Below, piece after piece: positions 9,815 to 64,000 of a stretch of DNA of 64,000 nt. Below the pieces are notes generated by a model. That model had not been told where the DNA came from. It saw nothing but the letters and a program-made list of their open reading frames with translations, and did no database searches. A program made the translations under genes and the position numbers. Numbering within the stretch: position 1 is the stretch's first letter; each line of letters starts with the position of its first letter. Source of the DNA: Bacteroidota bacterium (GTDB lineage: Bacteria > Bacteroidota > Bacteroidia > Chitinophagales > Saprospiraceae); the NCBI GenBank assembly GCA_020160935.1, contig JAIUPL010000002.1:310001-374000 (forward strand). Direction: 5' to 3'.

Positions 9815-10965
9815 CAGCATACAATCCGCAATGGCTCGATGCCTTGCGCATCCGTGAAATGGTGGCTGCATGGCGCCGGAACGAATGGCTGGGCGAGGAC
9901 AAATGGAAAAACATTCAGGCGCATTACCCCGAGTCGTTTTATTCACCCAATTTATTCGTACGCATTGGCCTTGCCTTTTTCAGCCTGATACTGCTTTCGG
10001 CGGCCATGGGTTTGCTGGGGCTTTTTTTTGACCCCGATTCTGAAACAGCCTTTGCCGGGTTTTGCCTGTTTGTAGGTGTCCTGGCCTTGCTTTTCCTGGA
10101 GTTTTGGGCCATCCGATCGGCCAGGCATTACGGCAGCGGCGTAGACGATATGCTGCTGTATTTTGCCATAGGGAGCATCATTGCCGGACTGTGTATGCCC
10201 ATGCCGTATCAGACGGACGAGGTGGTGTATTACAGCGTGGCATTTCCATTTCTTGTGCTTGGGAGTGTTCGTTATCTGGATCGGGTATTAAGCGCAGCAG
10301 CCTTCCTCTGCGGCCTGCTGATATGCTTGAAAATAGCGATGCAGGTACCTAACCTCGCGATTTACCTGCTTCCGCTGACAGGTATACTGTTTTCGGTGGC
10401 GATCTACCTGTTCGCACGCGAAGGCCAGCGTCGGTACAACTGGCGTTTTTGGCATCGTCAACTGGCATTGCTGGAGTGGATGTCCATTGTAACCCTCTAC
10501 CTGAGCATCAATTACTGGGTGGTGCAACTGTTCGCATTCGAGGCACTTCAAATAGAAAACATCCCCCTGCCCTGGTTTTTTTGGGTGCTTACGTTTGTTT
10601 TGCCGATCGCTTACATCTGGGCGGGTGTGCAGCAAAAAGATCGCCTGATGCTCGATACAGGTCTGGGTGCTGCTGCAGGTGCTGTTTTTACCTTCCGCTA
10701 TTTCTTTCATGTGCTGCCCTGGGCCTGGGCGGCGGTTATCGCCGGTGCGGTGTTGTTTGTGGGTGCATATTTCAGCATTCGTTATCTGCGCAGCCACAAA
10801 GGCCCGTACACATATGCCAGTGAAGGAGACAAGATATGGTTGCAGGAATTGGAAGAACAATTGATAGAACAGACCATTGCCAGCCAGAACCCGCCGGTTC
10901 CGGTGAAAAAAGATGGTTTCGGAGGCGGGCAATTTGGAGGAGGAGGAGCAGAAGGAAATTTTTGA
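9811..10965 (+). CDS. Polytopic membrane protein, partner of the preceding gene
   Basis: A 384-residue protein with a soluble N-terminus (WLDALRIREMVAAWRRNEWL) and about nine to ten hydrophobic segments. It ends in a glycine-rich tail (GGGQFGGGGAEGNF), which occurs in several Bacteroidota membrane proteins of unknown function. The ATG overlaps the stop of the preceding membrane protein, indicating coupled translation, and the two resemble each other in layout (DUF2157/DUF4401-like). An upstream in-frame extension exists inside the previous gene but is not needed. No function is known. Confidence 0.75.
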   Translation: MTAYNPQWLDALRIREMVAAWRRNEWLGEDKWKNIQAHYPESFYSPNLFVRIGLAFFSLILLSAAMGLLGLFFDPDSETAFAGFCLFVGVLALLFLEFWAIRSARHYGSGVDDMLLYFAIGSIIAGLCMPMPYQTDEVVYYSVAFPFLVLGSVRYLDRVLSAAAFLCGLLICLKIAMQVPNLAIYLLPLTGILFSVAIYLFAREGQRRYNWRFWHRQLALLEWMSIVTLYLSINYWVVQLFAFEALQIENIPLPWFFWVLTFVLPIAYIWAGVQQKDRLMLDTGLGAAAGAVFTFRYFFHVLPWAWAAVIAGAVLFVGAYFSIRYLRSHKGPYTYASEGDKIWLQELEEQLIEQTIASQNPPVPVKKDGFGGGQFGGGGAEGNF

Positions 10966-10966
10966 C

Positions 10967-10998
10967 CTTGAAATAATCCGGCATACCCTTTACATTCG
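10967..10998 (+). promoter_or_regulatory. Promoter of tRNA-Gly
   Basis: CTTG at 10967-10970 and TACATTCG at 10991-10998, 20 bp apart, end 11 bases before the mature tRNA start. Confidence 0.5.
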
Positions 10999-11009
10999 CC
11001 CTTCATTCC

Positions 11010-11084
11010 GCGGGATTAGCTCAGGGGTAGAGCACAACTTTCCCAAAGTTGGGGCCGTGGGTTCGATTCCCATATCCCGCTCCA
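11010..11084 (+). tRNA. tRNA-Gly (anticodon CCC)
   Basis: The acceptor stem GCGGGAT/ATCCCGC, D-arm, anticodon stem CAACT/AGTTG with loop TTCCCAA (anticodon CCC), and T-arm GTGGG-TTCGATT-CCCAT all fold as a cloverleaf. CCA is encoded (11082-11084). Confidence 0.97.
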
Positions 11085-11090
11085 GGCAAT

Positions 11091-11133
11091 AAAAAAACGG
11101 ACTGCACCGGAAACCCGGCACAGCCCGTTTTTT
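11091..11133. terminator. Bidirectional terminator between tRNA-Gly and the giant secreted protein gene
   Basis: An A-run, a hairpin (ACGG, CTG and CCGG blocks paired with CCGG, CAG and CCGT) and a T-run are arranged so that either strand ends in T residues. It serves two converging transcripts. Confidence 0.75.
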
Positions 11134-11154
11134 ATTATTTCCACAAATTCTCTC

Positions 11155-34966: not shown

Positions 34967-36967
34967 ATGAAAAATCAACACCTAATTTCAATCATTCTTG
35001 CAGTACTGTGCCTGCCTTTGCTGTTTGGCACATCGGGCTGCAAACCCAAAAACATCGGGAGTGCCGTGGAAGGCGATGCCGCACAGAAAGTGTATGTTGC
35101 TCCTGGCAAATACGATGAATTTTACAACATCGTGTCCGGTGGATTCAATGGTCAGGTATCCGTGTACGGCATACCCTCCGGCCGTTTGCTGCGTATTATC
35201 CCGGTGTTTTCACAGTTTGCGGAAAACGGCTGGGGCTACAGCGAGGAAACCAAACCCATGCTGAATACCTCCCACGGGTTTGTGCCCTGGGACGATTCGC
35301 ACCATATTGCTCTTTCCACCACCAAAGGCGAACACGACGGCCGCTGGGCATTCGTCAATGGCAATAATACGCCGCGTATCGCCCGTATCGACCTGAAAAC
35401 ATTCCGTACGACGGAGATCATGGAAATCCCCAACAGTTCGGGTAACCACTCCTCTCCGTTCCTGACGGAAAATACGGAATATGCCGTGGCGGGTACGCGT
35501 TTCAGTTATCCGATGGACGATGCCAATTCCAACCCGGATGTTGCCATCAATACCTACAAACAGAATTTTAAAGGCACGGTATCCTTCGTGGGCATCGACC
35601 CGCAGAGTGGCCGCATGTCGCTCAGTTTTCAGGTACTCCTGCCGGGCTTCAACTTCGACCTGAGCCGCTGTGGCCGCGGGCCGTCGCACGACTGGTTTTT
35701 CTTCTCCTGCTACAATACCGAACAGGCCAATACCCTGCTGGAAGTGAATGCTTCGCAGAAAGACAAGGACTTCATCATGGCTGTAAACTGGAAAAAATGC
35801 GAGGAGTATGTGAAAGCAGGCAAAGGCAAAAAATCGAAAGTGCGTTTTGCCCACAATGTGTATGACGAAAAAACGCACTCTGCTACCTCGACCATCGAAA
35901 GTGAAACAGTTGTGCTGGACCCAAAAGAATTCAAAGACATCGTGTATTTCATGCCTTGCCCGAAATCGCCGCACGGCTGCGACGTCGACCCGACGGGCGA
36001 ATACATTTGCGGCTCGGGTAAACTGGCGGCGGTCATTCCGGTATTTTCTTTTAGCAAAATCCAGAAAGCCATTGCCGACCAGAATTACGATGGCGATTTT
36101 GATGGTATTCCGGTGCTGAAATACGATGCTGTGCTGCATGGCGAGGTGAAAAAGCCCGGCCTGGGCCCATTGCACACCGAATTTGACGGGAAAGGATTTG
36201 CCTACACCTCCTTCTTCGTGTCTTCGGAAATTGTGAAGTGGAACATTGAAAAACTGGAAGTAGTCGACCGCGTACCTACCTACTACTCCATTGGTCACCT
36301 GTGCGTTCCCGGCGGCCCTACCCGCAAACCGCATGGAAAATACGTAATCGCCTACAACAAGATTACCAAAGACCGCTACCTGCCCACTGGCCCGGAACTG
36401 ACCCAATCGGCCCAGTTGTACGACATTTCCGGCGATAAAATGAAATTGCTGCTCGACTTCCCCACCACAGGAGAGCCGCACTATGCCGAAGCCATTCCTG
36501 CCAGCCTCGTTCAGCCTCAGTCCACCAAATTTTTCAAAATCGAGGAAAATCAGCACCCGTACGCTGCTCATGGCGAGAAAGAAGCCAAAGTATTCCGGGA
36601 GGGCAACAAAGTACACGTCAACATGACGTCTATTCGCTCGCACTTTACACCTGATAATATTGAGGGGGTAAAAATGGGCGACGAAGTGTATTTCCACGTC
36701 ACCAACCTCGAACAGGACTGGGATGTGCCGCACGGATTTGCCGTAAAAGGCGCCAACAACGCTGAAATCCTCATCATGCCCGGCGAAACCTGCACCCTCA
36801 AATGGGTGCCCGATCGGGTAGGCGTTTTCCCGATGTATTGTACCGACTTCTGTTCGGCACTGCACCAGGAAATGCAGGGCTACGTACGGGTGTCGCCCAA
36901 AGGTTCCAGCGTGCCGCTCACATTTAGTACCGGCAACAAAGCCGAACCTACCGGCGAAGTCAAATAA
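34967..36967 (+). CDS. nosZ: Nitrous-oxide reductase, clade II (Sec type)
   Basis: A 666-residue protein that reduces N2O to N2 in the periplasm. The signal is of Sec/lipoprotein type (PLLFGTSGC), not twin-arginine, which marks the atypical clade II. The N-terminal propeller carries the expected histidines for the CuZ centre (TSHGF, SPHGC, PLHTEF, IGHL, KPHGK, EPHYAE). The C-terminal cupredoxin has the CuA motif C-x3-C-x3-H-x2-M (YCTDFCSALHQEMQGY) and the upstream His in WDVPHGF. All key ligands that I can see are present, so it should be active. NosL, D, F and Y follow; no nosR is present, as usual for this clade. Confidence 0.97.
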   Translation: MKNQHLISIILAVLCLPLLFGTSGCKPKNIGSAVEGDAAQKVYVAPGKYDEFYNIVSGGFNGQVSVYGIPSGRLLRIIPVFSQFAENGWGYSEETKPMLNTSHGFVPWDDSHHIALSTTKGEHDGRWAFVNGNNTPRIARIDLKTFRTTEIMEIPNSSGNHSSPFLTENTEYAVAGTRFSYPMDDANSNPDVAINTYKQNFKGTVSFVGIDPQSGRMSLSFQVLLPGFNFDLSRCGRGPSHDWFFFSCYNTEQANTLLEVNASQKDKDFIMAVNWKKCEEYVKAGKGKKSKVRFAHNVYDEKTHSATSTIESETVVLDPKEFKDIVYFMPCPKSPHGCDVDPTGEYICGSGKLAAVIPVFSFSKIQKAIADQNYDGDFDGIPVLKYDAVLHGEVKKPGLGPLHTEFDGKGFAYTSFFVSSEIVKWNIEKLEVVDRVPTYYSIGHLCVPGGPTRKPHGKYVIAYNKITKDRYLPTGPELTQSAQLYDISGDKMKLLLDFPTTGEPHYAEAIPASLVQPQSTKFFKIEENQHPYAAHGEKEAKVFREGNKVHVNMTSIRSHFTPDNIEGVKMGDEVYFHVTNLEQDWDVPHGFAVKGANNAEILIMPGETCTLKWVPDRVGVFPMYCTDFCSALHQEMQGYVRVSPKGSSVPLTFSTGNKAEPTGEVK

Positions 36968-37075
36968 ACCGCGCACTCTTTCCATCATGCCGATCGGCGA
37001 TTTGGGCGGGCAAAGCGCCTGCCAAACCGTCTGAGCCGCCGGTCGGCACGATTCATTTCTTGAAATCCTTCGATT

Positions 37076-38104
37076 ATGCAAACGCTTGGCAAATCAACGC
37101 GTATCCTGCTCGGCATAGCCAGCCTGTCGCTGATAGGCACCTTCTTCGTCCCGCTCTGGCAAATTTTGTTGTGGGCGCCGCAGTACCCGGAAGGACTGTC
37201 TATGAAAATCTGGTCGAACCGGCTAACTGGCGATATCGACATCATCAACGGACTCAACCACTACATCGGCATGAAACATATCAGTGTGGAGATGTTTCCG
37301 GAATTCAATTACATCGGTATCCTGATCGGTATTCTCATCGCCATTGGCGTGCTTGCTGCCCTGACAGGAAAACCGCGTATTCTGTTCTTTTTCACGCTGT
37401 TATCTTGCGTGTATGGCGTGGCTGCTCTTTGGGATTTCTGGCGCTGGGGCTATGATTATGGCCACAACCTCGACCCGAATGCTGCCATCAAGGTACCCGA
37501 TATGTCGTACCAGCCGCCGCTGGTGGGGTATAAAAACCTGTTGAATTTCACCTCTTACTCTGGCCCTGACACCGGTGCATGGATGATCATTGGCGTGTGT
37601 CTGCTGGCGACCGGAATCTGGTGGTGGTGGTTTTTTTCAAACAGGAAAATGGCTGCAAAACAAACGGCCAAAGCATCTGCTGCTGCACTGTTGCTGTCGG
37701 CTTTGTTTCTGGAGTCCTGCACATCGGGTCCCGAGCCCATTCGGTATGGAAAAGATGAGTGTGCGCATTGCAAAATGACCTTGACTGACAAACGCTTCGG
37801 CGCTGAAATTATCACCGACAAAGGCAAGGTTTTCAAATTCGATGACCTGAACTGTCTGGCAGACTACCTGAAATCGGGGCAAATTCAGGATGCCTCCGTG
37901 GCTCAAATGGTTTCGGTAGATTTTAAAAATATCCCAGCATTTGTAGATGTGAAAAAGGCGTTTTTTCTGCAAAATGAAGCCATTAAGAGCCCTATGCGCG
38001 GCGATATAGCCACTTTTTCCTCGCAGGCCGATCGAGATGCCGTACAAAAAGAACTGGGCGGCGGAAAAGCCCTCACCTGGGAAGAAGCGCTGCGCGCATT
38101 CTGA
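37076..38104 (+). CDS. nosL: Nos-cluster membrane protein fused to NosL copper chaperone
   Basis: 342 residues in one frame. Residues 1-190 are a four-helix membrane protein (QTLGKSTRILLGIASLSLIG, PQYPEGLSMKIW, LNHYIGMKHISVEMFPEFNY) typical of Bacteroidota nos clusters. Residues 191-342 are a complete NosL: a hydrophobic lipobox-like stretch (LLLSALFLESC), then YGKDECAHCKMTLTDKRFG and FDDLNCLADYL. NosL delivers copper to NosZ. Elsewhere these are usually two genes. Here no stop separates them, and an internal ATG at 37649, preceded by acagga, could also start NosL alone. Predicted topology (positive loop RKMAAKQTAK inside, fifth helix, NosL outside) works for a real fusion. Confidence 0.85.
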   Translation: MQTLGKSTRILLGIASLSLIGTFFVPLWQILLWAPQYPEGLSMKIWSNRLTGDIDIINGLNHYIGMKHISVEMFPEFNYIGILIGILIAIGVLAALTGKPRILFFFTLLSCVYGVAALWDFWRWGYDYGHNLDPNAAIKVPDMSYQPPLVGYKNLLNFTSYSGPDTGAWMIIGVCLLATGIWWWWFFSNRKMAAKQTAKASAAALLLSALFLESCTSGPEPIRYGKDECAHCKMTLTDKRFGAEIITDKGKVFKFDDLNCLADYLKSGQIQDASVAQMVSVDFKNIPAFVDVKKAFFLQNEAIKSPMRGDIATFSSQADRDAVQKELGGGKALTWEEALRAF

Positions 38105-38144
38105 TGTTCCACATTTTAACCAAGATCATTTGAATGCCATATCT

Positions 38145-39377
38145 ATGAAAAAAATGCTTTTGATGTCGAGTATGTTGCTGGCGATGTTGCCATTGTGCGC
38201 GCGTACGCTGCACGTAGGGGCCGGGTTTCCAAATCCCACCATTTCCAGTGCGCTGTTGCAGGCTCGTTCGGGCGATACGATTTTCGTTCACCCGGGTGTG
38301 TATGCCGAAGGCAATCTTTCCATCAACCTGCCACTGACGCTGATCGGGATCGATTACCCGGTGCTGGATGGTCGGCACATCGACGAAATTATCACGGTCA
38401 ACAGCAGCCACGTTACCATCCTCGGGTTTGAAATCCGCAACAGCGGCCAGCGCAGTACCATCGACATTGCTGGCATCAAAGTGCTGTCGTCCGATTCGGT
38501 AACGCTGGAAAACAATCGGCTGCGGGATTGCAATTTTGGCATTTACCTCTCCAACACGATCGGCTGCAAGGTCATTCACAACGACGTGCAGGGCGTTATC
38601 AAAGAAGAGCAGAACAGCGGAAATGGCATTCATGTGTGGAAAGGCTCCGGCCATGTTATTGCTGAAAATCACCTGACCGGGCACCGCGACGGCATTTATT
38701 TCGAGTTTGTGACCGATTCGGAAATTCGGGAAAACATGAGCGAGCAAAACCTTCGCTATGGGCTGCATTTTATGTTCTCGCACAATGACCATTATCACCA
38801 CAACACTTTCCGAAACAATGGCGCTGGTGTAGCAGTCATGTATTCCCGACAGGTGAAAATGACGGAAAACTACTTCGGCTACAACTGGGGCAGTTCGGCA
38901 TATGGTATTCTGCTGAAAGACATTTCCGACAGCCATATCTGGAAAAATAATTTCGAACACAACTCTGCGGGCGTGTACATGGAAGGCGCCAGCCGGATCA
39001 TTCTGGAAGAAAACCAGTTTCGCGAAAACGGCTGGGCGCTGCGCGTGCAGGCCAGTTGCGATGCCAATGTGGTGCGGCGCAATAACTTTTTCGGTAACTC
39101 CTTCGATGTGGCTACCAACGGCAACCTGGTGCTCAATACGTTCGACGGCAACTACTGGGACAAATACGAAGGCTACGACCTCAACCACGATGGCATTGGC
39201 GACCTGCCATTCCGGCCCGTCAGCCTGTATGCTGTGGTAGTGGAACGGATGCCGCATGCCCTGATGCTGATGCGCAGTTTTATCGTGTATCTGATGGACA
39301 AGGCAGAGAAAATTATCCCTTCTCTGACGCCCGAACAATTGATGGATCAACAACCGGCCATGCATCCGCTTGTTTGA
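38145..39377 (+). CDS. nosD: NosD, periplasmic copper-processing protein
   Basis: 410 residues from ATG 38145, with a signal peptide (MLLMSSMLLAMLPLCA) and a right-handed beta-helix body of the NosD/CASH type (VTILGFEIRNSG, NFGIYLSNTIGCKVIHNDV, HRDGIYFEFVTDSEIRENMS, LRYGLHFMFSHND, YGILLKDISDSHIW). It is required with NosF and NosY to mature the copper sites of NosZ. It lies directly after the NosL fusion gene in the same orientation. Confidence 0.95.
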   Translation: MKKMLLMSSMLLAMLPLCARTLHVGAGFPNPTISSALLQARSGDTIFVHPGVYAEGNLSINLPLTLIGIDYPVLDGRHIDEIITVNSSHVTILGFEIRNSGQRSTIDIAGIKVLSSDSVTLENNRLRDCNFGIYLSNTIGCKVIHNDVQGVIKEEQNSGNGIHVWKGSGHVIAENHLTGHRDGIYFEFVTDSEIRENMSEQNLRYGLHFMFSHNDHYHHNTFRNNGAGVAVMYSRQVKMTENYFGYNWGSSAYGILLKDISDSHIWKNNFEHNSAGVYMEGASRIILEENQFRENGWALRVQASCDANVVRRNNFFGNSFDVATNGNLVLNTFDGNYWDKYEGYDLNHDGIGDLPFRPVSLYAVVVERMPHALMLMRSFIVYLMDKAEKIIPSLTPEQLMDQQPAMHPLV

Positions 39378-54271: not shown

Positions 54272-57247
54272 TTAGAAGTTGACACCGAAGCCGAGCAGGT
54301 ACGTACGCGGTCTTGGGTAAATGTTGTTGTCGATACCGTTGGAAATTTCCGGGTCGAGGCCGTCGTATTTGGTCACCACCAGCGGATTCTGTACGGTTAC
54401 ATACACGTTGAAATATTTGCCTATCACATTGTTGAAAGAGTATCCTGCCGTCACGTGGTCGAGGCGGAAGAAGGAGGCTTCTTTTACAAAGTAATCGCTA
54501 AACGTAAGGCTCGACTGCTTGTCCACATTGAGGTCTACTGCCGATTGGTTCACATTGGAAAGGTAACCCGTGGTGCCGTACAGGCGATCGAGGTAGCCCA
54601 TGTCGGTTTGCACGTTGTTGTACACGTAGTTGCCAATGTGCGCGCGGCCTGCAAAAGAGAATGTGAAGGCGCCAATGTTGAGGCTGCTGGTGAGGCCGAG
54701 CGTCACAGGTGGCGCCGGGTTTTTGTAGCGGTATTTGTCCAGGTCGTCTACTTTCCCGTCGCCATTACGGTCTACAAACTGATTTTCCAGGATGTTGCCG
54801 TTTTCATCGTATAGTTGCTCTTTTACATAAAACGAACTGGGTGCATAGCCTGTGTAGTGGTTCTGAATGTTACTGCCCACACCGCCGGCAATGCCGCCAA
54901 CGAGTACGCCGATGTACTTGGGATCATTGCTGGTGGTCAGTTTGGTAATTTTCGAATTGTTGTAGGCAAAGTTGGTGCTCAAATCCCAGCGCACTTTGCG
55001 CGTCACGACGGGCGACAGGTTCAGGCTCAGTTCCACGCCTTTTGTTTCCATCGTACCGATGTTGTCGATCGCGAAGTTGGACAGGTTGGACAAGGCAGGT
55101 ACCGGAATGCGGTTCAGCAGATCGCGGGTATTTCTCTGATAAACGTCCAGCGAACCCGACAGGCGATCAGTCATGATGGTGAAGTCGAGGCCTGCGTTAT
55201 ACGTCGTCGTTTCTTCCCATTGAATATCAGCCACATAAGCATTGGGGCGGAACGTAGTCACGTACTCGTCGCCAAACTGGTACTGTGCGTTGGGCATACC
55301 CACCTGATACTGAGCCAGGTAAGCGTAGTAGTCGACAAGCCTGTTGCCGATATCCTGCTGACCCGTAATACCCCAACTCAGACGGAGTTTCATGTTGCTG
55401 AAATACTTGGTGTTCTGGTCGAGGATTTTCATGGCGAAGGCCGCGGCCGGGAAAAGGCCCCAGCGATAGTCCGGCGAGAAACGCGAAGTGCCGTCTCTTC
55501 TCAATGAGCCGGTAAGCAGGTATTTACCATTGAAATCATAATTCACACGACCGTACATGGAAAGCAGGTAATACTCTGCGGGGTCCTGTCCGGTGCTCAC
55601 TTCCGATGGCGTACCTGCCGTGTCGGAGTTTTTGTAATAATTGCTCACTTCGAAATGCTGCCAGGAGTAACCGCCCATGATATCCAGGCCGTGGCGGCCG
55701 AAGGTTTTTTTGTAATTCAGGTAGGCTTCCAGCAGAGAGTTGGTTCTGGTCTGTTCGTAGTAGTTGTTTACACCGCCGCCGGTGAGGGCGTCAAACGCAA
55801 ATGCAGCGAAGTTGGGCACTACCACGGTACCGGAGCCTTTAGCGCGGTCGTAGCCAAGGTTCAGGTTGGCGCGCAATTCAGGCAAAAAGGCAAAACGGTA
55901 GTCGAACGAAGCGTTTGTGATGTAGTGTTTTACGGTCGAATTGTCGTCTCTGAGTTCGAGCAGGGCTACGGGGTTGGTCGTGGCCAAACCGTTCGGGTTG
56001 CCGTTTGCAATTTTCCAGGTGGTAAAACCGCCGTAGCGAGTGCTGGTGTCGCGGACTGGTTTGGTGGGGTCGAAACTCAGGGCGTTTCCGATCGCGCCGC
56101 GGTCGGCGAAGTGGTTGTCTGAAAGTATGCCTTTGAACGACAGGTTGACCTGCAGGCGGTTATTCAGAAACTTCGGATTCACATTGATAGCGGTCGAATA
56201 ACGTTTGAATTCATCCGTTTTCAGCAAACCGTTTTTCTGTGTAAAACCCAGCGACACGCGGTAAGGGAAAATGCCGAAACCACCAGAAGCATTGAGGTTG
56301 TGGTCGTGTCCGAAGGCCGACTGATAAATTTCGTCCTGCCAGTCGGTATTGGCCGTACCCAGCAACGCCAGCGAAGGGTGGTTGGGGTTGGCTACGCCGT
56401 AGTGTTCCTGAACGGTGGCGCGGAATTCGTCGGCTGTCAGCACATCCACGCGGTTGGCGGTTTGTGCAACAGAAACGTTGCCCGTGTAGCCTACGGTGAT
56501 TTTTTTGCCGAGTTTACCCTTTTTCGTGGTGATAATGATAACGCCGCCGGAAGCGCGGTTGCCATAAATGGCCGCTGCAGAAGCGTCTTTCAGCACGGTA
56601 AACGTCTCGATGTCGTTCGGGTTGATCACGTTCAACTGGTTGCGGCTGCCCGATACGCCGGTGTTATCGAGCGGAACACCGTCTACCACGATCAGCGGAT
56701 TGTTGGAAGCCGACAGAGACGACTCGCCCCGGATGCGGATCTGGGCGCCGCCGCCCGGCGAACCATCGCTGATGATTGTCACACCTGCCACCTTGCCTGC
56801 GAGCAAATCCTGCGGGCCGGTGATGGCGCCCCGGTTGAATTTGTCGGTCGATACGGATTGTACGAGGCCCGTAGCGTCTTCCCGCTTCACGGTACCGTAG
56901 CCGATGACCAGCACTTCACTGAGTTCCTTACCGGCAGACAGCGTGACGAGGATGTCATTGACGCCGACAATACTTTGCTCGGTGGTTTCATAACCGGTGT
57001 AGTTAAAAATCAGGGCCGTGGAATTGTCGCCTACAACGAGGCGGAATTTACCCTCGAAATCGGAGGCAACTCCATGTGCCCGATTCTCCTTTTCAATGAC
57101 CGTTACGCCGATCAAGGCCTCGCCGGTCTCGCGGTCTGTAATCGTTCCCGTCACAGTTCTCTGAGCGGAAACTGTCAGGTGCGTACCCAGCATCACCAGC
57201 GCCGGAACGACGATCCGCAGGAGTACGCTTTTGGTAAAAATATTCAT
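54272..57247 (-). CDS. susC: SusC/RagA-family TonB-dependent outer-membrane transporter
   Basis: About 991 residues from ATG 57245-57247 (MNIFTKSVLL). Signal peptide, then the carboxypeptidase-regulatory-like domain (TGTITDRETGEALIGVTVIE, NYTGYETTEQSI) and the plug with the SusC signature (LSEVLVIGYGTVKREDATGL, GSPGGGAQIRIRGESSLSAS, NNPLIVVDGVPLDN). A 22-strand barrel ends in an aromatic C-terminus (YLLGFGVNF). It imports oligosaccharides, here presumably galacto-oligosaccharides from GH53 action, with TonB energy. It is followed by SusD. Confidence 0.95.
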   Translation of the reverse strand: MNIFTKSVLLRIVVPALVMLGTHLTVSAQRTVTGTITDRETGEALIGVTVIEKENRAHGVASDFEGKFRLVVGDNSTALIFNYTGYETTEQSIVGVNDILVTLSAGKELSEVLVIGYGTVKREDATGLVQSVSTDKFNRGAITGPQDLLAGKVAGVTIISDGSPGGGAQIRIRGESSLSASNNPLIVVDGVPLDNTGVSGSRNQLNVINPNDIETFTVLKDASAAAIYGNRASGGVIIITTKKGKLGKKITVGYTGNVSVAQTANRVDVLTADEFRATVQEHYGVANPNHPSLALLGTANTDWQDEIYQSAFGHDHNLNASGGFGIFPYRVSLGFTQKNGLLKTDEFKRYSTAINVNPKFLNNRLQVNLSFKGILSDNHFADRGAIGNALSFDPTKPVRDTSTRYGGFTTWKIANGNPNGLATTNPVALLELRDDNSTVKHYITNASFDYRFAFLPELRANLNLGYDRAKGSGTVVVPNFAAFAFDALTGGGVNNYYEQTRTNSLLEAYLNYKKTFGRHGLDIMGGYSWQHFEVSNYYKNSDTAGTPSEVSTGQDPAEYYLLSMYGRVNYDFNGKYLLTGSLRRDGTSRFSPDYRWGLFPAAAFAMKILDQNTKYFSNMKLRLSWGITGQQDIGNRLVDYYAYLAQYQVGMPNAQYQFGDEYVTTFRPNAYVADIQWEETTTYNAGLDFTIMTDRLSGSLDVYQRNTRDLLNRIPVPALSNLSNFAIDNIGTMETKGVELSLNLSPVVTRKVRWDLSTNFAYNNSKITKLTTSNDPKYIGVLVGGIAGGVGSNIQNHYTGYAPSSFYVKEQLYDENGNILENQFVDRNGDGKVDDLDKYRYKNPAPPVTLGLTSSLNIGAFTFSFAGRAHIGNYVYNNVQTDMGYLDRLYGTTGYLSNVNQSAVDLNVDKQSSLTFSDYFVKEASFFRLDHVTAGYSFNNVIGKYFNVYVTVQNPLVVTKYDGLDPEISNGIDNNIYPRPRTYLLGFGVNF

Positions 57248-57671
57248 ACGAATGTGATTCAAGTTTTAGAATAGAAAAGTGAACAAAGCGGATTATTCTT
57301 ATGGTGCAAACCAGAAATTTTTTTTGCCCGGGAGGGGAAAAAATGAGAGACTAAGGTCGGAAAAACTGTTCCTCACCCTTCCTGAAAAAAATTTTTTTAG
57401 GCTCTGATTTTAAACATTGAAAATTCAGAAAAAATACAACGGAACGATTTTGCCGGATTATTGAACAACGCAATCGTTTGCGGAAGAGGTTTTACGAAAG
57501 ACGCGTTGCAAAAATAAAAATGTAAACGCGCTGCAAAATTAAAAAAAGAATAATACTGTCGTCGTTTTACATAAATTTTTCCAAGGTCGGTTTTTTCAGA
57601 ATTAAAAAACAAATTAACTTTGTGATGATTTTAGCAAAACTTTCAGTTTAATATTTCAAATACTCATAACG
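57248..57671. promoter_or_regulatory. AT-rich divergent promoter region of the glycan locus
   Basis: No gene is seen. A -7 element TAACTTTG at 57615-57622, with a T-run 20 bp upstream, directs the gene at 57672. The susC promoter must lie to the left, but I see no clear consensus there. Confidence 0.6.
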
Positions 57672-59438
57672 ATGAAGTTACGATTACTCTTTTCCCTTCT
57701 CTTCGGAGCCATGCTGATGACTGGTTTCAGCCAAGTCTCCGTAGGTATTATCGGCAGTGCTACACCTACTGGTTGGGACTCCGACACCGACATGGTACCC
57801 GATCCTGACAGCGCAGGCCTTTGGTCGATTGTGATCAATCTTACCCAAGGTGATGTCAAGTTCCGCCAGGACAATGACTGGGCTGTGAACTGGGGCGCGA
57901 ATACCTTCCCTTCCGGTTTCGGTACGCAGGATGGCCCGAACATTCCGATCCCTGCCGCAGGTGAATTTACCGTTACCTTCAATGCAAACAACGGCGAATA
58001 CCACTTCACGGTAACCTCCGACATCGGTATTATCGGCGATGCTACGCCGGGTGGCTGGGCTGACGACACCAATATGTTCCTCGATCCACTCGACTCCAAC
58101 GAGTACTTCCTTACCCTTCCGTTGACGACAGGTTTTGTGAAGTTCCGCGCCAATGACGGCTGGACACAGAACTGGGGCGCTACGGATTTCCCAACTGGTG
58201 TGGGTGTACAGGACGGTCCGAATATTCCGATCACTACTGCCGGTAAATACCTCGTTCATTTCAACAAGGTAACTGGCGCGTACAGTTTTGAAGAAGTGAT
58301 CGAATTCAACACCATCAGCATCATCGGCGACGCTACTGCCGGCGGTTGGGACACCGATACACACCTGACGAAAGACAACGGAAACCCCGATCTGTGGAAA
58401 GGCAACGTGTCGCTGACTGACGGTACCCTGAAATTCCGCGCCAACGACGCCTGGACGCTCAACTGGGGAGGCACCGACTTCCCGATGGGTGTGGCTGTTC
58501 CTGGTGGCGACAACATTCCGGTGGATTCCGGCGACTACCAGGTGACATTCAACACCGCTACGCTGGAATACAACTTCCTGCCGATCATTCCATTTACCAC
58601 CATCGGTATTATCGGCGACGCCACTCCAGGCGGCTGGGATGCTGATACGGACATGGAACAGGATCCGACCAATCCTGCTATCTGGAGAAAACGCCTGATT
58701 CTGACTGACGGCGAAGCCAAATTCCGCGCTGAAAACGACTGGACCTTCAACTGGGGCGCAGGCGACTTCCCCACCGGCTTAGGTGTACAAGACGGCGCCA
58801 ATATCCCGGTTGTGGCTGGTGAATACAAAATCACCTTCAACTCCATCACCGGCGAATACAGTTTTGAAGAACTCATCATTTTCGGCACCGTAGGTATCAT
58901 TGGTACCGCTACTCCCGATGGCTGGAACTCCGATGTGGATATGACCAAAGACCTCGTCGACGAATCGTTCTGGTACATCAACTCGATGGACCTGACCGAC
59001 GGCGAAGCCAAATTCCGCGCTGAAAATGCCTGGACGATCAACTGGGGCGCTAACACCTGGCCAACCGGTGTAGGCACACAAGACGGTCCGAATATCCCGA
59101 TCACGGGCGGTACTTACCGTATCACCATCAACACCGGCACCGGCGAGTACGCTTTCTCCGAGCCTTCTTCTACCGTCAACCTGCTCGACCAGAACAGCAT
59201 CCGCATCGCGCCGAACCCGGCTAAAAGCGTGCTGAATATCGAGGTGAACGTAGCCGAAATGCAGGGCGAAACCCGCATCGTGCTGTTCAACACCACCGGC
59301 CAACAAGTAATGGCTACGAATGTGAACATCCAGAACCGCGTATCCATCCCGGTTGTCAACCTGATGCCAGGCCAGTACACCATGCAAATGACGAATGGTA
59401 AAAACATCGTGGCCAAACAGGTGGTGATTGTGAAATAA
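57672..59438 (+). CDS. Surface protein of five SusE/F-like modules with type IX secretion tail
   Basis: A 588-residue protein: signal peptide (LLFSLLFGAMLMTGFSQ), then five modules of about 96 residues each, starting near bases 57741, 58025, 58317, 58606 and 58892. Each module opens with a G-I-I-G-x-A-T-x-x-G-W pattern (VGIIGSATPTGWDSDT, IGIIGDATPGGWADDT). Each continues with KFRAN-D-W and NWGA-x-x-FP and ends in a GPNIPI ... GEY strand pair. This pattern is that of SusE/SusF starch-binding modules. A Por_Sec_tail ends the protein (IAPNPAKSVLNIEV ... NLMPGQYTMQMTNG). It is divergent from susCD and should bind the glycan at the cell surface. The modules are similar enough at DNA level to recombine. 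Confidence 0.88.
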   Translation: MKLRLLFSLLFGAMLMTGFSQVSVGIIGSATPTGWDSDTDMVPDPDSAGLWSIVINLTQGDVKFRQDNDWAVNWGANTFPSGFGTQDGPNIPIPAAGEFTVTFNANNGEYHFTVTSDIGIIGDATPGGWADDTNMFLDPLDSNEYFLTLPLTTGFVKFRANDGWTQNWGATDFPTGVGVQDGPNIPITTAGKYLVHFNKVTGAYSFEEVIEFNTISIIGDATAGGWDTDTHLTKDNGNPDLWKGNVSLTDGTLKFRANDAWTLNWGGTDFPMGVAVPGGDNIPVDSGDYQVTFNTATLEYNFLPIIPFTTIGIIGDATPGGWDADTDMEQDPTNPAIWRKRLILTDGEAKFRAENDWTFNWGAGDFPTGLGVQDGANIPVVAGEYKITFNSITGEYSFEELIIFGTVGIIGTATPDGWNSDVDMTKDLVDESFWYINSMDLTDGEAKFRAENAWTINWGANTWPTGVGTQDGPNIPITGGTYRITINTGTGEYAFSEPSSTVNLLDQNSIRIAPNPAKSVLNIEVNVAEMQGETRIVLFNTTGQQVMATNVNIQNRVSIPVVNLMPGQYTMQMTNGKNIVAKQVVIVK

Positions 59439-59486
59439 TGATCTTTTGAAGCAAAACGGGCGATTTGTGCCTGTTTTTGAAATGGG

Positions 59487-59524
59487 AAGCCCCGCCGGAG
59501 CGATTCGGCGGGGCTTTCTTTTTT
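59487..59524 (+). terminator. Terminator after the SusE/F-like gene
   Basis: Stem AAGCCCCGCC with GGCGGGGCTT (59487-59496, 59507-59516), ten-base loop, then a T-rich tail. Confidence 0.88.
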
Positions 59525-59862
59525 ATATCAGCCTGATACTTTCCGTGGTATTTTTTCGCAGCCTGCTGCCGCCATGCCCCCCTTGTCACCCTGGCGGGGC
59601 CCGTTCACTCTATGGCGCGTAACAACGTATTTTCAAGGCAGGCACGTGGCCAATGTCGTTGACGTAAGTGGGCGATTACGAGGGGGCGATTACGAGCGGG
59701 TGGCCCAACGACGGGCGACCACGAGGGTCGCCCCAACGAACGGTCGCCCCAACGCCGCCTCCGTGCCGCTAACGGTGGGCAGCCATGCCGCCTTTATGGC
59801 GCGGAAAAGATGAGATGACTTACGTTTACCTTCGTATTTTTCGCCCGGCAAACCACCACACA
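59525..59862. other. Spacer left of the DGR with G-rich repeats
   Basis: No gene is supported. Positions 59665-59760 are rich in gggcgattacgag and ggtcgccccaacg words and include the hairpin gggcgacc-acgag-ggtcgccc (59714-59734). The last 30 bases match the leader of the second DGR target gene, with a -7-like TATTTTTC at 59835-59842. Confidence 0.6.
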
Positions 59863-60618
59863 ATGGCAAACCACCCGCAACACCTCCCCGGCCTATCCGA
59901 GCCTTTTCTGATGATCGCCATCCCCGGCGGCACATTTGATATGGGCGGAGAAAGTTGGGACAACGAAAGAAGTCTTCCCATACACCCGGTAGAACTGTCC
60001 GATTTCCGGATGGGGCAACACCCTGTAACCCAGGCCCTGTGGTTGGCCGTAATGGGGGAAGAGAACAATCCTTCCTACTTCAAAGGCCTCACCCGGCCGG
60101 TAGAATCGGTTTCCTGGGAACAAATCGACCGGGAATTTCTGCCCCGCCTGAATGAGATGACCAAAGATAAACGGCCCGCCGGTACCGTGTATCGCCTGCC
60201 AACCGAAGCGGAGTGGGAATACGCAGCGCGGGGCGGCCCGGATTGGAAAAACCAGTCTTTTTTATATGCCGGAAGCGACGTGCTGGATGAAGTGGGCTGG
60301 TACGACGACAACAGCCACGGCGAAACCAAACCTGTGGGCCTGAAAATGAAAAATGCCCTCGGACTGTATGATATGAGCGGAAATGTATGGGAATGGTGCG
60401 CCGACTGGTACGGAAGGGACTACTACAAAAAGTGCCTGGAAGAGGGTGTAACGAAGAACCCGCCCGGCCCGGAGCAGGGCTCGAACCGCGTTCTTCGCGG
60501 CGGTGGTTGGAACCTCAACGCGCAGATCTGCCGCTCTGTGTCGCGCGACTTCAGCGATCCGTCGGACCGCCCCATCAATATCGGCTTCCGCCTGGTCTTG
60601 TCGATTACCCCAGTTTAG
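59863..60618 (+). CDS. DGR target protein 1, FGE-sulfatase (C-type-lectin-like) fold
   Basis: 251 residues from ATG 59863; no signal peptide or membrane segment, so cytoplasmic as far as sequence shows. Residues 15-251 form a formylglycine-generating-enzyme-like domain ([79 protein letters not shown] ... [13 protein letters not shown]). The variable repeat encodes about residues 206-250, including the surface loop between LRGGGW and NIGFRLV. The binding residues there read W-NLN-AQ-I-C and V-SRDFS-DPS-D-R-PIN. It is a diversified ligand-binding protein rather than a working sulfatase activator. The leader matches that of target 2; ATG 59863 is chosen from that match. Confidence 0.92.
   Translation: MANHPQHLPGLSEPFLMIAIPGGTFDMGGESWDNERSLPIHPVELSDFRMGQHPVTQALWLAVMGEENNPSYFKGLTRPVESVSWEQIDREFLPRLNEMTKDKRPAGTVYRLPTEAEWEYAARGGPDWKNQSFLYAGSDVLDEVGWYDDNSHGETKPVGLKMKNALGLYDMSGNVWEWCADWYGRDYYKKCLEEGVTKNPPGPEQGSNRVLRGGGWNLNAQICRSVSRDFSDPSDRPINIGFRLVLSITPV
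60476..60613 (+). repeat. DGR variable repeat VR1
   Basis: It aligns without gaps to the template 63493-63630 (offset 3017). There are 15 differences, 14 at template A: four A to G, four A to C, six A to T. The exception is template C 63560 to G at 60543. The last 38 bases (template 63593-63630) are identical. Confidence 0.95.
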
Positions 60619-60636
60619 TTGGCTTGTTCCTTCCGG

Positions 60637-60726
60637 CTTCCTGTGAGCGAGGCCCATTTTCCGCGGCGAACGGCGCAAACAAGCGAGGGACGAGCGCAGG
60701 GAGCGGCGGGAGTGGCGGAAAATGGG
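60637..60726. repeat. Structured 3' flank of VR1
   Basis: Just after the target stop lie cttcctgtgagc (60637-60648), whose reverse complement follows the template repeat, and a 12-bp stem cccattttccgc/gcggaaaatggg (60653-60664, 60715-60726) around a 50-base G-rich loop. The same structure follows VR2. Confidence 0.8.
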
Positions 60727-60795
60727 GCAAGGGGCAAAGAGCAATAGGCAAGAGGCAAGATTTTCTTCTTTTCCCGTTCGGCCGAGGGTGATTCA

Positions 60796-60908
60796 GGTGG
60801 TAGCATGGGCTTCAGCCCGTCGGGACAGCGCCATTGATGGCGCTCACAACAAAAAATAAACATGCGCCTTAAAAGGCGCTGTCCCGACGGGCTAAAGCCC
60901 ATACCACC
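60796..60908. repeat. Inverted repeat I between the two DGR target genes
   Basis: Near-perfect arms 60796-60832 and 60875-60908 (cgtcgggacagcgcc core) enclose two small hairpins (gcgcc-attgat-ggcgc and gcgcct-taaa-aggcgc). No gene is seen in 60619-61031. Confidence 0.92.
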
Positions 60909-61031
60909 ACATGAAAAACGCTTGGCCTTTCAAAAAAACACAAGCGCTTTGACCACCTCCAAATTAGTGCCTCGCCAGGTGTCCTTCGCCCAAGCGCAAC
61001 GCCGCCGCAGTGTCTCTGACCTGCGGCCAAC

Positions 61032-61062
61032 TTTGGAATGATTCTATGCCTTCGTACTTTTA
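61032..61062 (+). promoter_or_regulatory. Promoter of DGR target 2, TTTG-N19-TACTTTTA
   Basis: TTTG at 61032-61035 and TACTTTTA at 61055-61062 stand 19 bp apart; ATG 61083 follows after a leader of about 15 bases. Confidence 0.6.
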
Positions 61063-61082
61063 GCCTGACAAACCACCACACG

Positions 61083-61838
61083 ATGGAAAACCACCCGCAA
61101 CACCTCCCCGGCCTCCCCGAGCCATTCTTAATGATCGCTATCCCTGGCGGCACATTTGATATGGGCGGAGAAAGTTGGAACAACGAAAGAAGTCTTCCCA
61201 TACACCCGGTAGAACTGTCCGATTTCCGGATGGGGCAATACCCCGTGACGCAATCCCTTTGGATGGCCGTGATGGGGGAAACCAGCAACCCATCACACTT
61301 CAAAGGCCCCATGCGGCCTGTAGAGTCGGTTTCCTGGGAACAAATCGACCGGGAATTTCTGCCCCGTCTGAACGAGATGACCATCCATAAACGGCCCGCC
61401 GATACGGTTTATCGCCTGCCGACCGAAGCAGAGTGGGAATACGCAGCGCGGGGCGGCCCGGAATGGGAAAACCAGTCTTTTTTATATGCCGGAAGCGACG
61501 TGCTGGATGAGGTAGGTTGGTACGACGGCAACAGCCCCGGCGAAACCAAACCCGTGGGCCTGAAAATGAAAAACGCCCTCGGGATGTACGACATGAGCGG
61601 AAATGTATGGGAGTGGTGCGCCGACTGGTACGGCAGGGATTACTACAAAAAATGCCTTGAAGACAGAATTGTCAAGAACCCGCCCGGCCCGGAGCATGGC
61701 TCGGACCGCGTTCTTCGCGGCGGTGGTTGGCTCGACCTCGCGCAGTACTGCCGCTCTGTGTACCGCTACTACCTCGATCCGTCGTACCGCAACTTCAATA
61801 TCGGCTTCCGCCTGGTCTTGTCGATTCCCCCAGTTTAG
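61083..61838 (+). CDS. DGR target protein 2, FGE-sulfatase (C-type-lectin-like) fold
   Basis: 251 residues, the same length as target 1 and a close paralogue; the two genes, their leaders and their 3' flanks come from one tandem duplication. Landmarks repeat (MIAIPGGTFDMGGESW, YRLPTEAEWEYAARGG, MYDMSGNVWEWCADWYG). In the variable repeat the diversified residues read W-LDL-AQ-Y-C and V-YRYYL-DPS-Y-R-NFN, rich in Tyr, Leu and Asp and clearly different from target 1. No export signal is present. It should bind a different ligand through the same scaffold. Confidence 0.92.
   Translation: MENHPQHLPGLPEPFLMIAIPGGTFDMGGESWNNERSLPIHPVELSDFRMGQYPVTQSLWMAVMGETSNPSHFKGPMRPVESVSWEQIDREFLPRLNEMTIHKRPADTVYRLPTEAEWEYAARGGPEWENQSFLYAGSDVLDEVGWYDGNSPGETKPVGLKMKNALGMYDMSGNVWEWCADWYGRDYYKKCLEDRIVKNPPGPEHGSDRVLRGGGWLDLAQYCRSVYRYYLDPSYRNFNIGFRLVLSIPPV
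61696..61833 (+). repeat. DGR variable repeat VR2
   Basis: It aligns without gaps to the template 63493-63630 (offset 1797). There are 18 differences, 17 at template A: three A to G, four A to C, ten A to T. The other is G to T at template 63494, at the repeat boundary. One A change (63624 to C) lies near the 3' end, so mutagenesis starts at least that far downstream. Confidence 0.95.
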
Positions 61839-61857
61839 TTGGTTTGTTCCTACCAGC

Positions 61858-61947
61858 CTTCCTGTGAGCGAGGCCCATTTTCCGCGGCGAGCGGCGCAAA
61901 CAAGCGAGGGACGAGCGCAGGGAGCGGCGGGAGTGGCGGAAAATGGG
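61858..61947. repeat. Structured 3' flank of VR2
   Basis: cttcctgtgagc at 61858-61869 and the stem cccattttccgc/gcggaaaatggg at 61874-61885 and 61936-61947 repeat the flank of VR1. Purine-rich agaggcaa words (61958-62010) follow before the HRDC gene. Confidence 0.8.
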
Positions 61948-62045
61948 GAATGGGGGGCAAAGAGCAAGAGGCAAGAGGCAAAATGCAAGGGACAAGAGGC
62001 AAGGAGCAAAACACATATATTACAATTATAATAAGGTGTATAGTC

Positions 62046-62486
62046 ATGCAAATTAAAACATTTACGATCCCTATTGTGGGCGGCGAAGCGATCAATGAGG
62101 ACCTCAATCTTTTTTTACGAAGCCATAAAGTGTTGGAGGTTGAAAAGCAATTGGTGTTGGCAAATGGCAGTGGCTTCTGGTGTTTTTGCATCACCTGGAT
62201 GGATGGAGGAACAGGAGTGGAGAAAGAAAAAACGGACTATAAAAAAGTATTGGATGAAGCCACTTTCAAGCGATTTTCGCATTTGCGTGACATCCGGAAA
62301 CGGCTGGCGCAGGAAGAAGCCATTCCGGCATATGCCATTTTCACAGATGAGGAATTGGCAGCGCTTGCCAAAATGGAAGAACTGACCCTTGCCAGCATGA
62401 AAACAGTAAAAGGTATTGGCGAAAAGAAAATAGAAAAGTACGGTAAACACTTCATCGAAAAAGATACCCATGCGGCGGGCGAATAA
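62046..62486 (+). CDS. DGR accessory protein with HRDC domain
   Basis: 146 residues from ATG 62046. The N-terminal about 60 residues (IKTFTIPIVGGEAINEDLNL, FLRSHKVLEVEKQL, GSGFWCFCITWMDGG) match a small domain found in DGR accessory proteins. Residues about 72-138 are a helical HRDC nucleic-acid-binding domain (FKRFSHLRDIRKRLAQEEAI, PAYAIFTDEELAALAKM, MKTVKGIGEKKIEKYGKHF). HRDC proteins replace the better-known Avd barrel in a subset of DGRs and probably help the reverse transcriptase bind its RNA. The end overlaps the reverse transcriptase start by 17 bases, so translation is likely coupled. Confidence 0.9.
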   Translation: MQIKTFTIPIVGGEAINEDLNLFLRSHKVLEVEKQLVLANGSGFWCFCITWMDGGTGVEKEKTDYKKVLDEATFKRFSHLRDIRKRLAQEEAIPAYAIFTDEELAALAKMEELTLASMKTVKGIGEKKIEKYGKHFIEKDTHAAGE

Positions 62487-63465
62487 TTTGCTGCATCTCA
62501 TAGCAGACCCGGATAACCTGCGCCTGGCATTCTGGAAAGCGCGCAAGGGGAAATCATACTCGGAAGAAGTCAGGATTTATCTCAACAACCTGCATCAAAA
62601 CCTGTCTGCCTTGCGAGTGCAGATACTCGATAATCATGTCGACGTAGGGAAATACCACTATTTTAAAGTGTACGACCCCAAAGAGCGGCAAATATGCGCT
62701 GCTGCATTTAGTGAGCAGGTTTTGCACCATGCCATCATGAACGTATGCCATCCGTTTTTTGAGCGCGCACAAATTTTTGATAGTTATGCCTGTCGGAAAG
62801 GGAAGGGTACTTATGCTGCGCTCGACCGCGCACGCTTGTACACACGCAGGTATCAATATTTTCTGAAATTGGATGTGCGGAAGTTTTTCGACAGTATCAG
62901 TCACCGGGTTCTTTTACATCAATTGCATAGATTGTTGAAAGACCATGCGGTGTTGCACCTGCTATACGCCATTGTTGACAGTTACACGTACGCACCCGAA
63001 GGCGAACCCCGCGGCGTACCTATCGGAAACCTGACCAGCCAGTATTTTGCCAACCATTATCTTTCCGAGCTCGATCACTATGTCAAAGAAGCGCTAAAAG
63101 CAAAAGCCTATGTACGCTATATGGACGACATGATCATCTGGCACGATGACAAGGAATTTTTGAAAGAGGCTCGCGTGGCAATTGATCAGTTTGTTGTGTC
63201 ACGTCTGAATTGTACACTGAAACCTGTTTTGCTCAATTACACGTCCTGTGGTTTGCCGTTTTTGGGCTATCTGATATTGCCTTTCCATACCCGGCTTGCA
63301 CAACGAAGCAAGTACCGTTTTATACGAAAATGGAAATATTTAGAGCAACAATATGACGATGGGCTGTGGAGCGAAACCGAATGCCAAAGGCATGCTTTGC
63401 CCCTGTTTGCTTTTACACAACATGCTGATACAAAAGAATTCAGGAAAAAAGTTTTGAATATTTAA
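62470..63465 (+). CDS. Diversity-generating retroelement reverse transcriptase
   Basis: A 331-residue enzyme. Motifs in order: [13 protein letters not shown] (catalytic Asp135), [17 protein letters not shown] at 182-198 with IGNLTSQ, which is the DGR-specific form of motif 4 (other bacterial reverse transcriptases have QG-x3-SP), the catalytic YMDD at 217-220, and LPFLGYLI at 262-269. Length is typical. There is no maturase or endonuclease domain, so it is not a group II intron. It copies the template RNA with errors at adenine. The template repeat begins 28 bp after its stop. Confidence 0.97.
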
Positions 63466-63492
63466 CTTTGCGAGTAAAGGTGCAGGGTCATA

Positions 63493-63630
63493 AGGGCTCG
63501 AACCGCGTTCTTCGCGGCGGTAGTTGGAACAACAACGCGCAGAACTGCCGCTCTGTGAACCGCAACAACAACGATCCGTCGAACCGCAACAACAATATCG
63601 GCTTCCGCCTGGTCTTGTCGATTACCCCAG
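63493..63630 (+). repeat. DGR template repeat (TR)
   Basis: 138 bp, non-coding in itself, matching both variable repeats. In the target frame it holds about twelve AAC codons, placed at the diversified sites of the lectin-like fold (tggaacaacaac, gtgaaccgcaacaacaac, tcgaaccgcaacaacaat). Changing A at the first two places of AAC can give many residues but never a stop codon. The open frame around it is not a gene. The reverse complement of the VR flank word follows at 63630-63641. Confidence 0.96.
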
Positions 63631-63720
63631 CTCACAGGAAGTCCGGAGGACATCCACTGAACAGGCTCTGCTCCCGCTCTCTGTTATGCAGGGACAAAAA
63701 TGCGGCGCGTAGCCGCCCCA

Positions 63721-63767
63721 GCAGCAGTATTGGTAGCCACGGATGCGAAGGTTCTGCTGCCTTTTTG
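63721..63767 (+). terminator. Possible terminator of the DGR transcript
   Basis: GCAGCAG at 63721-63727 pairs with CTGCTGC at 63754-63760 across a 26-base loop and is followed by five T residues. The long loop makes this uncertain. Confidence 0.4.
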
Positions 63768-63795
63768 TATATCTTGTAATTTATACGATACCTAA

Positions 63796-64000
63796 ATGCC
63801 CGAAACAATTCGAAACCTCCTCCACAAGTACCAACTTGCCCATCAACCTGATACCGACAGCGTACGCAGAAAAGGCAACAGTTATGCCGAACTGGACGGG
63901 AAAATCATCGCCCTGAGCCTGTCCGGCAAGGATGACCTGAACGAACTGCTGCTCGACGAATCTTGCTCGGCGCTCGAACACCTGTACCTGAACGATAACA
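63796..64000 (+). CDS. Leucine-rich-repeat protein (5' part)
   Basis: It starts at ATG 63796 and runs off the right edge after 68 codons. The visible part (MPETIRNLLHKYQLAHQPDT, then KIIALSLSGKDDLNELLLDE and LEHLYLNDN) ends in the consensus of a leucine-rich repeat. It may be a Roco/COR or other LRR signalling or adaptor protein. It follows the DGR by about 165 bp on the same strand; any functional tie to the diversified proteins is speculation. Confidence 0.65.
   Translation, partial: MPETIRNLLHKYQLAHQPDTDSVRRKGNSYAELDGKIIALSLSGKDDLNELLLDESCSALEHLYLNDN

Follow-up and report, generated by a model that had tools for sequence, protein, structure and literature searches.

An antisense, primer-binding-like tail behind the template repeat of an HRDC-type diversity-generating retroelement from a Saprospiraceae bacterium

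How can a diversity-generating retroelement (DGR) tell the gene that it rewrites from the template that it copies, when both end in the same sequence? This question is raised by a locus in a stretch of 64,000 nucleotides (nt), called the window below, from a Bacteroidota bacterium of the Saprospiraceae (assembly GCA_020160935.1, contig JAIUPL010000002.1, positions 310,001 to 374,000; C51:310001-374000 in our numbering of a 5.8 Mb genome in 51 contigs). At 59863-63641 the window holds a real and complete DGR, and all parts named in an earlier note made from the sequence alone were confirmed by sequence or domain search within 3.8 kb, namely two targets of the FGE fold, an HRDC accessory gene, a reverse transcriptase (RT) and a template repeat (TR). 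All parts of the cassette lie on the forward strand. The TR (63493-63630) comprises 138 nt, 34 of them A. The variable repeat (VR) of the first target, VR1 (60476-60613), differs from it at 15 of 138 sites, 14 of which are TR adenines (hypergeometric P 3e-9), and VR2 (61696-61833) differs at 18 of 138 sites with 17 at TR adenines (P 2e-11, same test). A third repeat, VR3, lies 3.7 kb beyond TR, outside the window, and shows 22 mismatches with 21 at TR adenines, so that all three repeats display the adenine-confined mismatches of a DGR. The last 38 nt of VR1 are identical to TR, while VR2 and VR3 show one A difference from it near the 3' end. A distinction between the 3' ends of VR and TR of the kind called IMH and IMH* (initiation of mutagenic homing) is hence not found in VR1 and amounts to a single A in VR2 and VR3, and in our judgement this difference, known for BPP-1, is not needed in every DGR. 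As VR1 and TR are identical over these 38 nt, the machinery must distinguish them outside the repeat.

The tail behind the template repeat

Directly 3' of TR we found a sequence of 17 nt, CTCACAGGAAGTCCGGA (63631-63647), that matches the VR3 flank in reverse complement at all but one base. Its first 11 nt match, likewise in reverse complement, the VR1 flank (60628-60647, with the core CTTCCTGTGAG at 60637-60647) and the VR2 flank (CTTCCTGTGAG at 61858-61868). This antisense tail was first noticed in the window and then tested on 62 loci of the HRDC clade with both TR and VR, window included, the relatives having been collected by an RT scan of species genomes of which the best 80 of 525 were kept. 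Pairing was scored ungapped (match 1, mismatch -1.5) and a score of 10 or more was taken as a pass. Without slack at the repeat ends 43 of the 62 loci pass, against 32 of the 613 pairs made from mismatched loci; in a same-sense control 2 of the 62 do. Because BLAST ends often overshoot TR and lowered this count, the windows were widened by 25-30 nt, and with this slack 59/62 loci pass versus 43/489 mismatched pairs. In 54 of the 62 loci the TR flank also has a higher score than any of 100 windows drawn at random from that locus. Counted per VR, 54 of 74 pass at no more than 5 nt from the TR end, and in 46 of them pairing starts exactly at the first base after TR (TR+1) and ends 23-35 nt past the VR end. 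In 10 of 12 loci with several targets, every VR retains a matching flank.

The core of the pairing was taken as the first 13 nt; over 55 distinct pairs it contains 657 paired positions, 26 wobbles, 4 A.C mismatches and 28 other combinations. The wobble share is 0.87 versus 0.54 for shuffled partners (p 1.5e-4), which is a lean towards G.T, and if one pair per locus is counted (43 loci) wobbles still exceed A.C by 19 to 3. An earlier wobble count of 69 versus 18 was discarded since it included outer positions of skewed composition, and a figure of 32 distinct cores, inflated by shifted anchors, was not used either. The locus-specific co-variation of tail and flank and the excess of wobbles suggest selection on the pairing itself, and we regard pairing between tail and flank in the HRDC clade as well supported by these counts.

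Among loci from outside the clade the same slack lets 2 of 74 pass (control 7/439), and without it none of 69 does; eight further loci, among them L072 with a likely HRDC gene, were left out as they offer no usable TR/VR pair. The tail scores below threshold in the two other DGRs of the same genome (on contigs C17 and C29), in the phages BIP-1, VHML and BalMu-1 and in a Prosthecochloris plasmid DGR. The two passing loci, L161 and L162, are near-identical HRDC-bearing viral contigs in which the match sits at TR+21 and VR-9 and thus shows another geometry. Together with L160 they belong to a set of IMG/VR contigs with a clade-like RT (41%) and the motif GAGGGACGA described below, the HRDC gene being seen in L161 and L162; this DGR type may be virus-borne, or the contigs may be bacterial. 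As a separate observation, Bordetella phage BIP-1 (L228) carries CCCGCCAAG at VR+20, which is complementary to TR+23 over 9 nt and could be due to chance or represent a reduced form of the tail.

Hairpins, template RNA and reverse transcriptase

The target flanks are followed by a second element. A hairpin lies 3' of VR1 (60653-60726) with a 12-bp outer stem (60653-60664 and 60715-60726) and the sequence GAGGGACGA in its loop (60685-60693), and the same 12-bp stem is found behind VR2 (61874-61947, GAGGGACGA at 61906-61914), while VR3 retains the outer stem with a compensating change. Across the clade an inverted repeat with a stem score of at least 10 is present 3' of the VR in 20/73 flanks but in only 2/62 TR flanks (Mann-Whitney p 1.7e-6), and the exact 9-mer GAGGGACGA, picked from these stems, occurs in 39/73 VR flanks, 0/62 TR flanks and 1/310 random windows. 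At each of the six positions tested, the bases flanking the loop pair more often than they do with shuffled partners; this inner-stem test drew on the 47 of 74 segments that agreed with a loosely defined motif, of which a few are probably spurious, and the better stem was taken where two fitted. The folding energy of single flanks, calculated for the window and locus L054, is modest (z -1.7 for VR1, -1.2 for VR2, +0.25 for TR and -4.1 for VR3), and the hairpin claim therefore rests on the comparison across loci. In the own genome the combined pattern of box and loop has three matches, located behind VR1, VR2 and a TIR-FGE gene on contig C34, and the reversed control pattern has one. The loop GAGGGACGA is unlike those of known DGR hairpins, which show GRNA loops on 7-10 bp stems in phages (PMC3240598) and GRA loops in archaea (PMC4372165).

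The antisense tail and the target hairpins are the unusual part of this cassette and had been missed in the earlier note. No earlier description of the tail or the GAGGGACGA loop was found in the open-licence PMC literature, subscription papers lying outside the scope of the search. The passages on hairpins, inverted repeats and complementarity in PMC3240598, PMC3521204, PMC4372165, PMC4891356, PMC8144416, PMC12875486 and PMC10907252 give no account of either element. A text search for the loop string in open-licence PMC, where figure text is unindexed, gave among the matches listed only papers unrelated by title, and no paper there combines Saprospiraceae with the phrase diversity-generating retroelement.

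Downstream of the tail, the TR RNA continues into a conserved 3' module (63648-63770) that closes with a stem resembling a terminator (63720-63761), followed in the window by a T run. In this stem 13 of 14 predicted pairs are changed on both sides. An RNA model of the region (R1) was tested on 27 held-out clade loci and recovered 24 of them at E 1.4e-4 or better, with L159 being weak and L129 and L151 not found. Outside the clade its best matches are L161 and L162 (3.5e-8, from position 30), followed by L212 (9e-4) and L072 (0.0017), and several outside DGRs score weakly, mostly with the 3' part. The own genome contains a single strong match, at the TR of the window, and Rfam at gathering scores gave no match in 57000-64000. 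The extent of 59863-63641 assigned to the cassette before includes all its named parts and ends too early, as the TR RNA module reaches about 63770-63773 and VR3 lies beyond the window.

The RT (331 aa, 62470-63465) contains the motifs IGNLTSQ and YMDD as had been noted. Among solved structures 8ub7 is the nearest to it in sequence, with 138 bits (runner-up 54 bits); we take this entry to be the RT of the Bordetella phage DGR. A quick tree of 113 RT entries was calculated, as the earlier note had suggested, with two group II intron RTs as outgroup; the window RT groups with the DGR RTs apart from these two and lies inside a starred set of 22 entries, all from the HRDC group. The structural relative and the quick tree both place it in the DGR clade. 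The HRDC group (80 entries) costs two changes on the RT tree. The accessory protein (146 aa, 62046-62486, PF00570 E 7e-17), whose gene overlaps the RT start, is predicted to fold into a beta-alpha-beta-beta N-terminal part and a RecQ-type HRDC domain. With this gene overlapping RT the cassette is an HRDC-type DGR, and an HRDC gene was seen in 77/80 fetched loci. A TR was located in 61/80 loci, and the order target, HRDC, RT and TR is kept in 51 of the 57 loci with a TR plus a VR target. The Prosthecochloris plasmid DGR (L236, 3191-5014) carries both HRDC and Avd genes and might be an intermediate between the accessory types.

Proposed target priming and its alternatives

Read from the DNA sequence, the 3' part of the template RNA is complementary to the would-be priming strand, which is the arrangement of target-primed reverse transcription. 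We read the tail as primer-binding-like, a stretch that pairs with the sense strand of the target and probably lets a nicked target prime synthesis of the complementary DNA (cDNA). In the mechanism that we propose, TR, tail and conserved module would be transcribed as a single RNA binding RT and the HRDC protein. The target hairpin would extrude as a cruciform to be recognized by HRDC, which as a RecQ-type domain could bind the junction, and the sense strand would be nicked beside the hairpin, which could present the nick. The freed 3' end (...TGTGAG) would pair with the tail abutting TR, the supported part of this step, and could then prime error-prone cDNA synthesis into TR. The resulting antisense cDNA would be attached to the sense strand at a point 23-35 nt beyond VR, would fold back on VR with these nt as the loop and might replace one VR strand after resolution. 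By analogy without homology this recalls the prime-editing guide RNA (pegRNA), in which the RT template is followed by a short stretch complementary to the potential priming strand; it differs in that the strand copied here would be antisense to the neighbouring VR and has to fold back. That HRDC-type DGRs are natural target-primed editors with their own primer-binding site, a GAGGGACGA cruciform marking the nick and a mutated cDNA that snaps back appears to us to have somewhat less than an even chance of being right. For the whole best explanation, an HRDC-accessory-type chromosomal DGR with tail-guided, target-primed copying and FGE sensors, the scales stand level.

Several observations weigh against this explanation. 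The tail stays below threshold even with slack in three of the 62 loci (L089, L129 and L149), in two of the 59 passing loci (L111 and L126) the match sits about 25 nt from the TR end, and in the C34 flank only 9 nt can pair with the tail. Since the loci are related, their counts are not independent and the p-values are optimistic. The exact GAGGGACGA is absent from 34/73 VR flanks, VR3 among the local targets lacks this loop, and the 9-mer was chosen from the stems of the same data in which it was counted; the Prosthecochloris plasmid DGR with HRDC and Avd shows neither tail nor loop. No nuclease is encoded in the cassette, and priming from the sense strand would yield a fold-back product that needs resolution. 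Mutagenic retrohoming itself is predicted here from sequence, with one genome per species and no VR turnover seen.

The BPP-1 DGR shares with the window the RT, adenine mutagenesis between TR and VR and a hairpin 3' of VR (PMC3240598), but the BPP-1 type has Avd instead of HRDC, and BIP-1 has a GAAA loop and no tail at TR+1. Naorem 2017 and Handa 2021 are said to deal with the priming of BPP-1 cDNA. Unlike in the target priming proposed here, this cDNA is primed by an adenine of the spacer RNA (PMC12875486), and guiding without priming is therefore conceivable: the tail would dock the ribonucleoprotein on the target strand, while priming would take place within the TR RNA, as in BPP-1, and the cDNA would arrive at VR by strand annealing. 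A preference of cDNA homing for the lagging-strand template (PMC12875486) would suit such a guide, as would the weak scores of the 3' part of R1 in outside DGRs, which may mean that self-priming DGRs have the same RNA core. However, pairing begins exactly at TR+1 in 46 of the 56 VRs scoring at least 10, which a primer would need and a guide would not, and we consider a pure guide unlikely, although it deserves to be taken seriously.

The partner of the tail could also be an RNA, if the 3' end of a target mRNA that stops or is cleaved at the hairpin, or the operon transcript, pairs with it and primes or folds the template. Targets and TR run in the same direction in one cluster and the G.T wobbles are compatible with such a pairing. 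One copy could prime in this case, but 10 of 12 multi-target loci keep a matching flank at each VR and even the remote TIR-FGE gene keeps a similar element, making an RNA partner improbable. Finally, the tail might be the scar of TR loci that were born from target-primed cDNA copied elsewhere and have no present function in this part. By our own reasoning the complement of flank plus antisense cDNA would read as TR plus antisense flank, exactly as seen, but the way in which tail and flank co-vary locus by locus, and the surplus of wobbles among the mismatches, suggest selection on pairing and leave such a by-product with very little probability. Target priming thus remains our preferred reading of the tail.

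Targets, partner genes and likely role

Both targets, of 251 aa each, match the FGE-sulfatase family PF03781 (target 1, 59863-60618, E 1e-46; target 2, 61083-61838, E 5e-45) with its FGE/C-type-lectin fold and carry their VR at the C-terminus as expected for DGR targets, and they share 85% identity. The structure predicted for target 2 (pLDDT, the predicted local distance difference test, 89) is nearest to the Treponema denticola variable protein TvpA, whose entry 2y3c is the best match by sequence as well as by structure. Inspection by eye, without a predictor, showed no signal peptide in target 1 or target 2. The gene for an LRR-Roc-COR (Roco) protein of 940 aa starts shortly behind TR (63796-64000, continuing past the window edge; Roc 7e-20, COR-A 3e-16), and its stop overlaps the ATG of the third FGE target bearing VR3. 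On contig C34 we found the TIR-FGE gene already mentioned, whose end resembles TR with 34 mismatches, 16 of them at A (P 8e-4), and whose last 34 nt equal TR except for one A. As a fresh VR this gene was rejected, its mismatches being too mixed (16/34 at A). Its assignment is carried by box and hairpin, and we tentatively propose it as a remote fourth target. The two targets described before are both real, but the count was incomplete, as three local targets and possibly this remote TIR-fused one are present.

The cassette had also been thought little described, which does not hold for its plan, known from the HRDC DGR of T. denticola (PMC4891356) and from FGE conflict systems (PMC8195603, PMC10907252). 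The T. denticola DGR shares FGE-fold targets, an HRDC gene overlapping RT and several targets per genome; it differs as 62% of its targets are predicted lipoproteins and as its accessory gene sits between TR and RT (PMC4891356), whereas the TR of the window follows RT. This likeness concerns layout and fold. DGR-diversified FGE/C-type-lectin domains have already been described in the NTPase-FGS conflict systems (Kaur 2021, PMC8195603; Dore 2024, PMC10907252), where FGE/FGS domains are linked with DGRs as well as with AP-GTPase (DAP-kinase Roc type), STAND, TIR and caspase parts (PMC8195603, PMC10907252). At the present locus, by contrast, the local FGE targets are short proteins of their own, and a separate gene encodes the Roco GTPase.

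An NTPase or effector in one operon with FGE, or fused to it, is thus found twice in this genome, as Roco overlapping target 3 and as TIR-FGE on C34. These contexts favour sensing of intracellular invaders, and the diversified FGE-fold proteins may be changeable intracellular sensors that signal via the Roco GTPase or the fused TIR. The idea of an intracellular conflict-system sensor (PMC8195603, PMC10907252) would fit the Roco neighbour, the TIR fusion and the lack of a signal peptide seen by eye. From 20 chosen proteins of the relatives 16 contain FGE, six of them also nSTAND1, caspase or TIR, and the remaining four are Roco (2), TIR (1) and SIR2-EAD11 (1). Against a sensor role, the other 10/16 FGE targets have no NTPase or effector domain, and the proteins might instead bind other ligands such as surface, kin or nutrient signals. 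The predicted lipoproteins among the T. denticola targets (PMC4891356) point in the same direction, as does the C29 DGR target of the same genome, which begins with a signal-peptide-like stretch by eye. Binding of such ligands nevertheless seems somewhat unlikely to us given the Roco, TIR, caspase and STAND contexts and targets 1 and 2 without a visible signal peptide, and sensing of invaders remains the role that we prefer.

A Roco gene is present in 12 of the 80 loci. For a test of Roco against target length 43/80 loci could be classed (VR target found and at least 3 kb after RT), one of them being mixed. Roco is nearby in 10/14 loci with short targets versus 0/28 with long ones, and in 8/12 versus 0/28 after removal of the two loci that had prompted the test. 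A general rule connecting Roco with short unfused targets was dropped, as the tree requires just three Roco changes and yields 2 independent pairs if starred branches alone are counted, or 3 if all branches are, and with so few independent origins no such rule is claimed.

Further elements were noted in the same genome. C17 contains a second DGR with another RT (L056, 5420-9242), whose TR is opposite in strand to RT and VR and whose target is a TIR-TPR-FGE protein; an EAD11 protein lies nearby at 10944-11717. A third DGR with yet another RT lies on C29 (L057, 5690-10192), where an EAD11 protein overlaps the RT start and the target has TSP3 repeats and an FGE domain. On C27 (L058, 7561-7872) a caspase-TSP3-FGE gene is followed by a repeat of its own end with 6/6 mismatches at A over 61 nt; as the 16-kb locus gave no RT match this is possibly an orphan TR/VR pair. 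Between targets 1 and 2 of the window there is a 64-nt inverted repeat with a 20-nt spacer (60780-60927), which contains GTCGGGACAGCGCC and by eye resembles the REP (repetitive extragenic palindromic) type. The nitrous-oxide respiration marker nosZ was confirmed at 34967-36967; it is of the Sec-dependent type and nosD is nearby (34967-39377).

The way in which the cDNA of a DGR locates its target and gets into it was still called incompletely understood in 2026 (PMC12875486). The near-universal, locus-specific tail in the clade loci tested gives a base-pairing handle on target finding, and it offers a way to test from sequence whether a remote target belongs to a given DGR, as tried here with the TIR-FGE gene on another contig. 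The tail may give a clue to the way in which cassettes of this kind locate a target and begin to copy. If our reading is true, it would represent a mode of retrohoming distinct from that of the RNA-primed BPP-1 and serving targets in trans, among them the sensor domains of Roco and TIR proteins.

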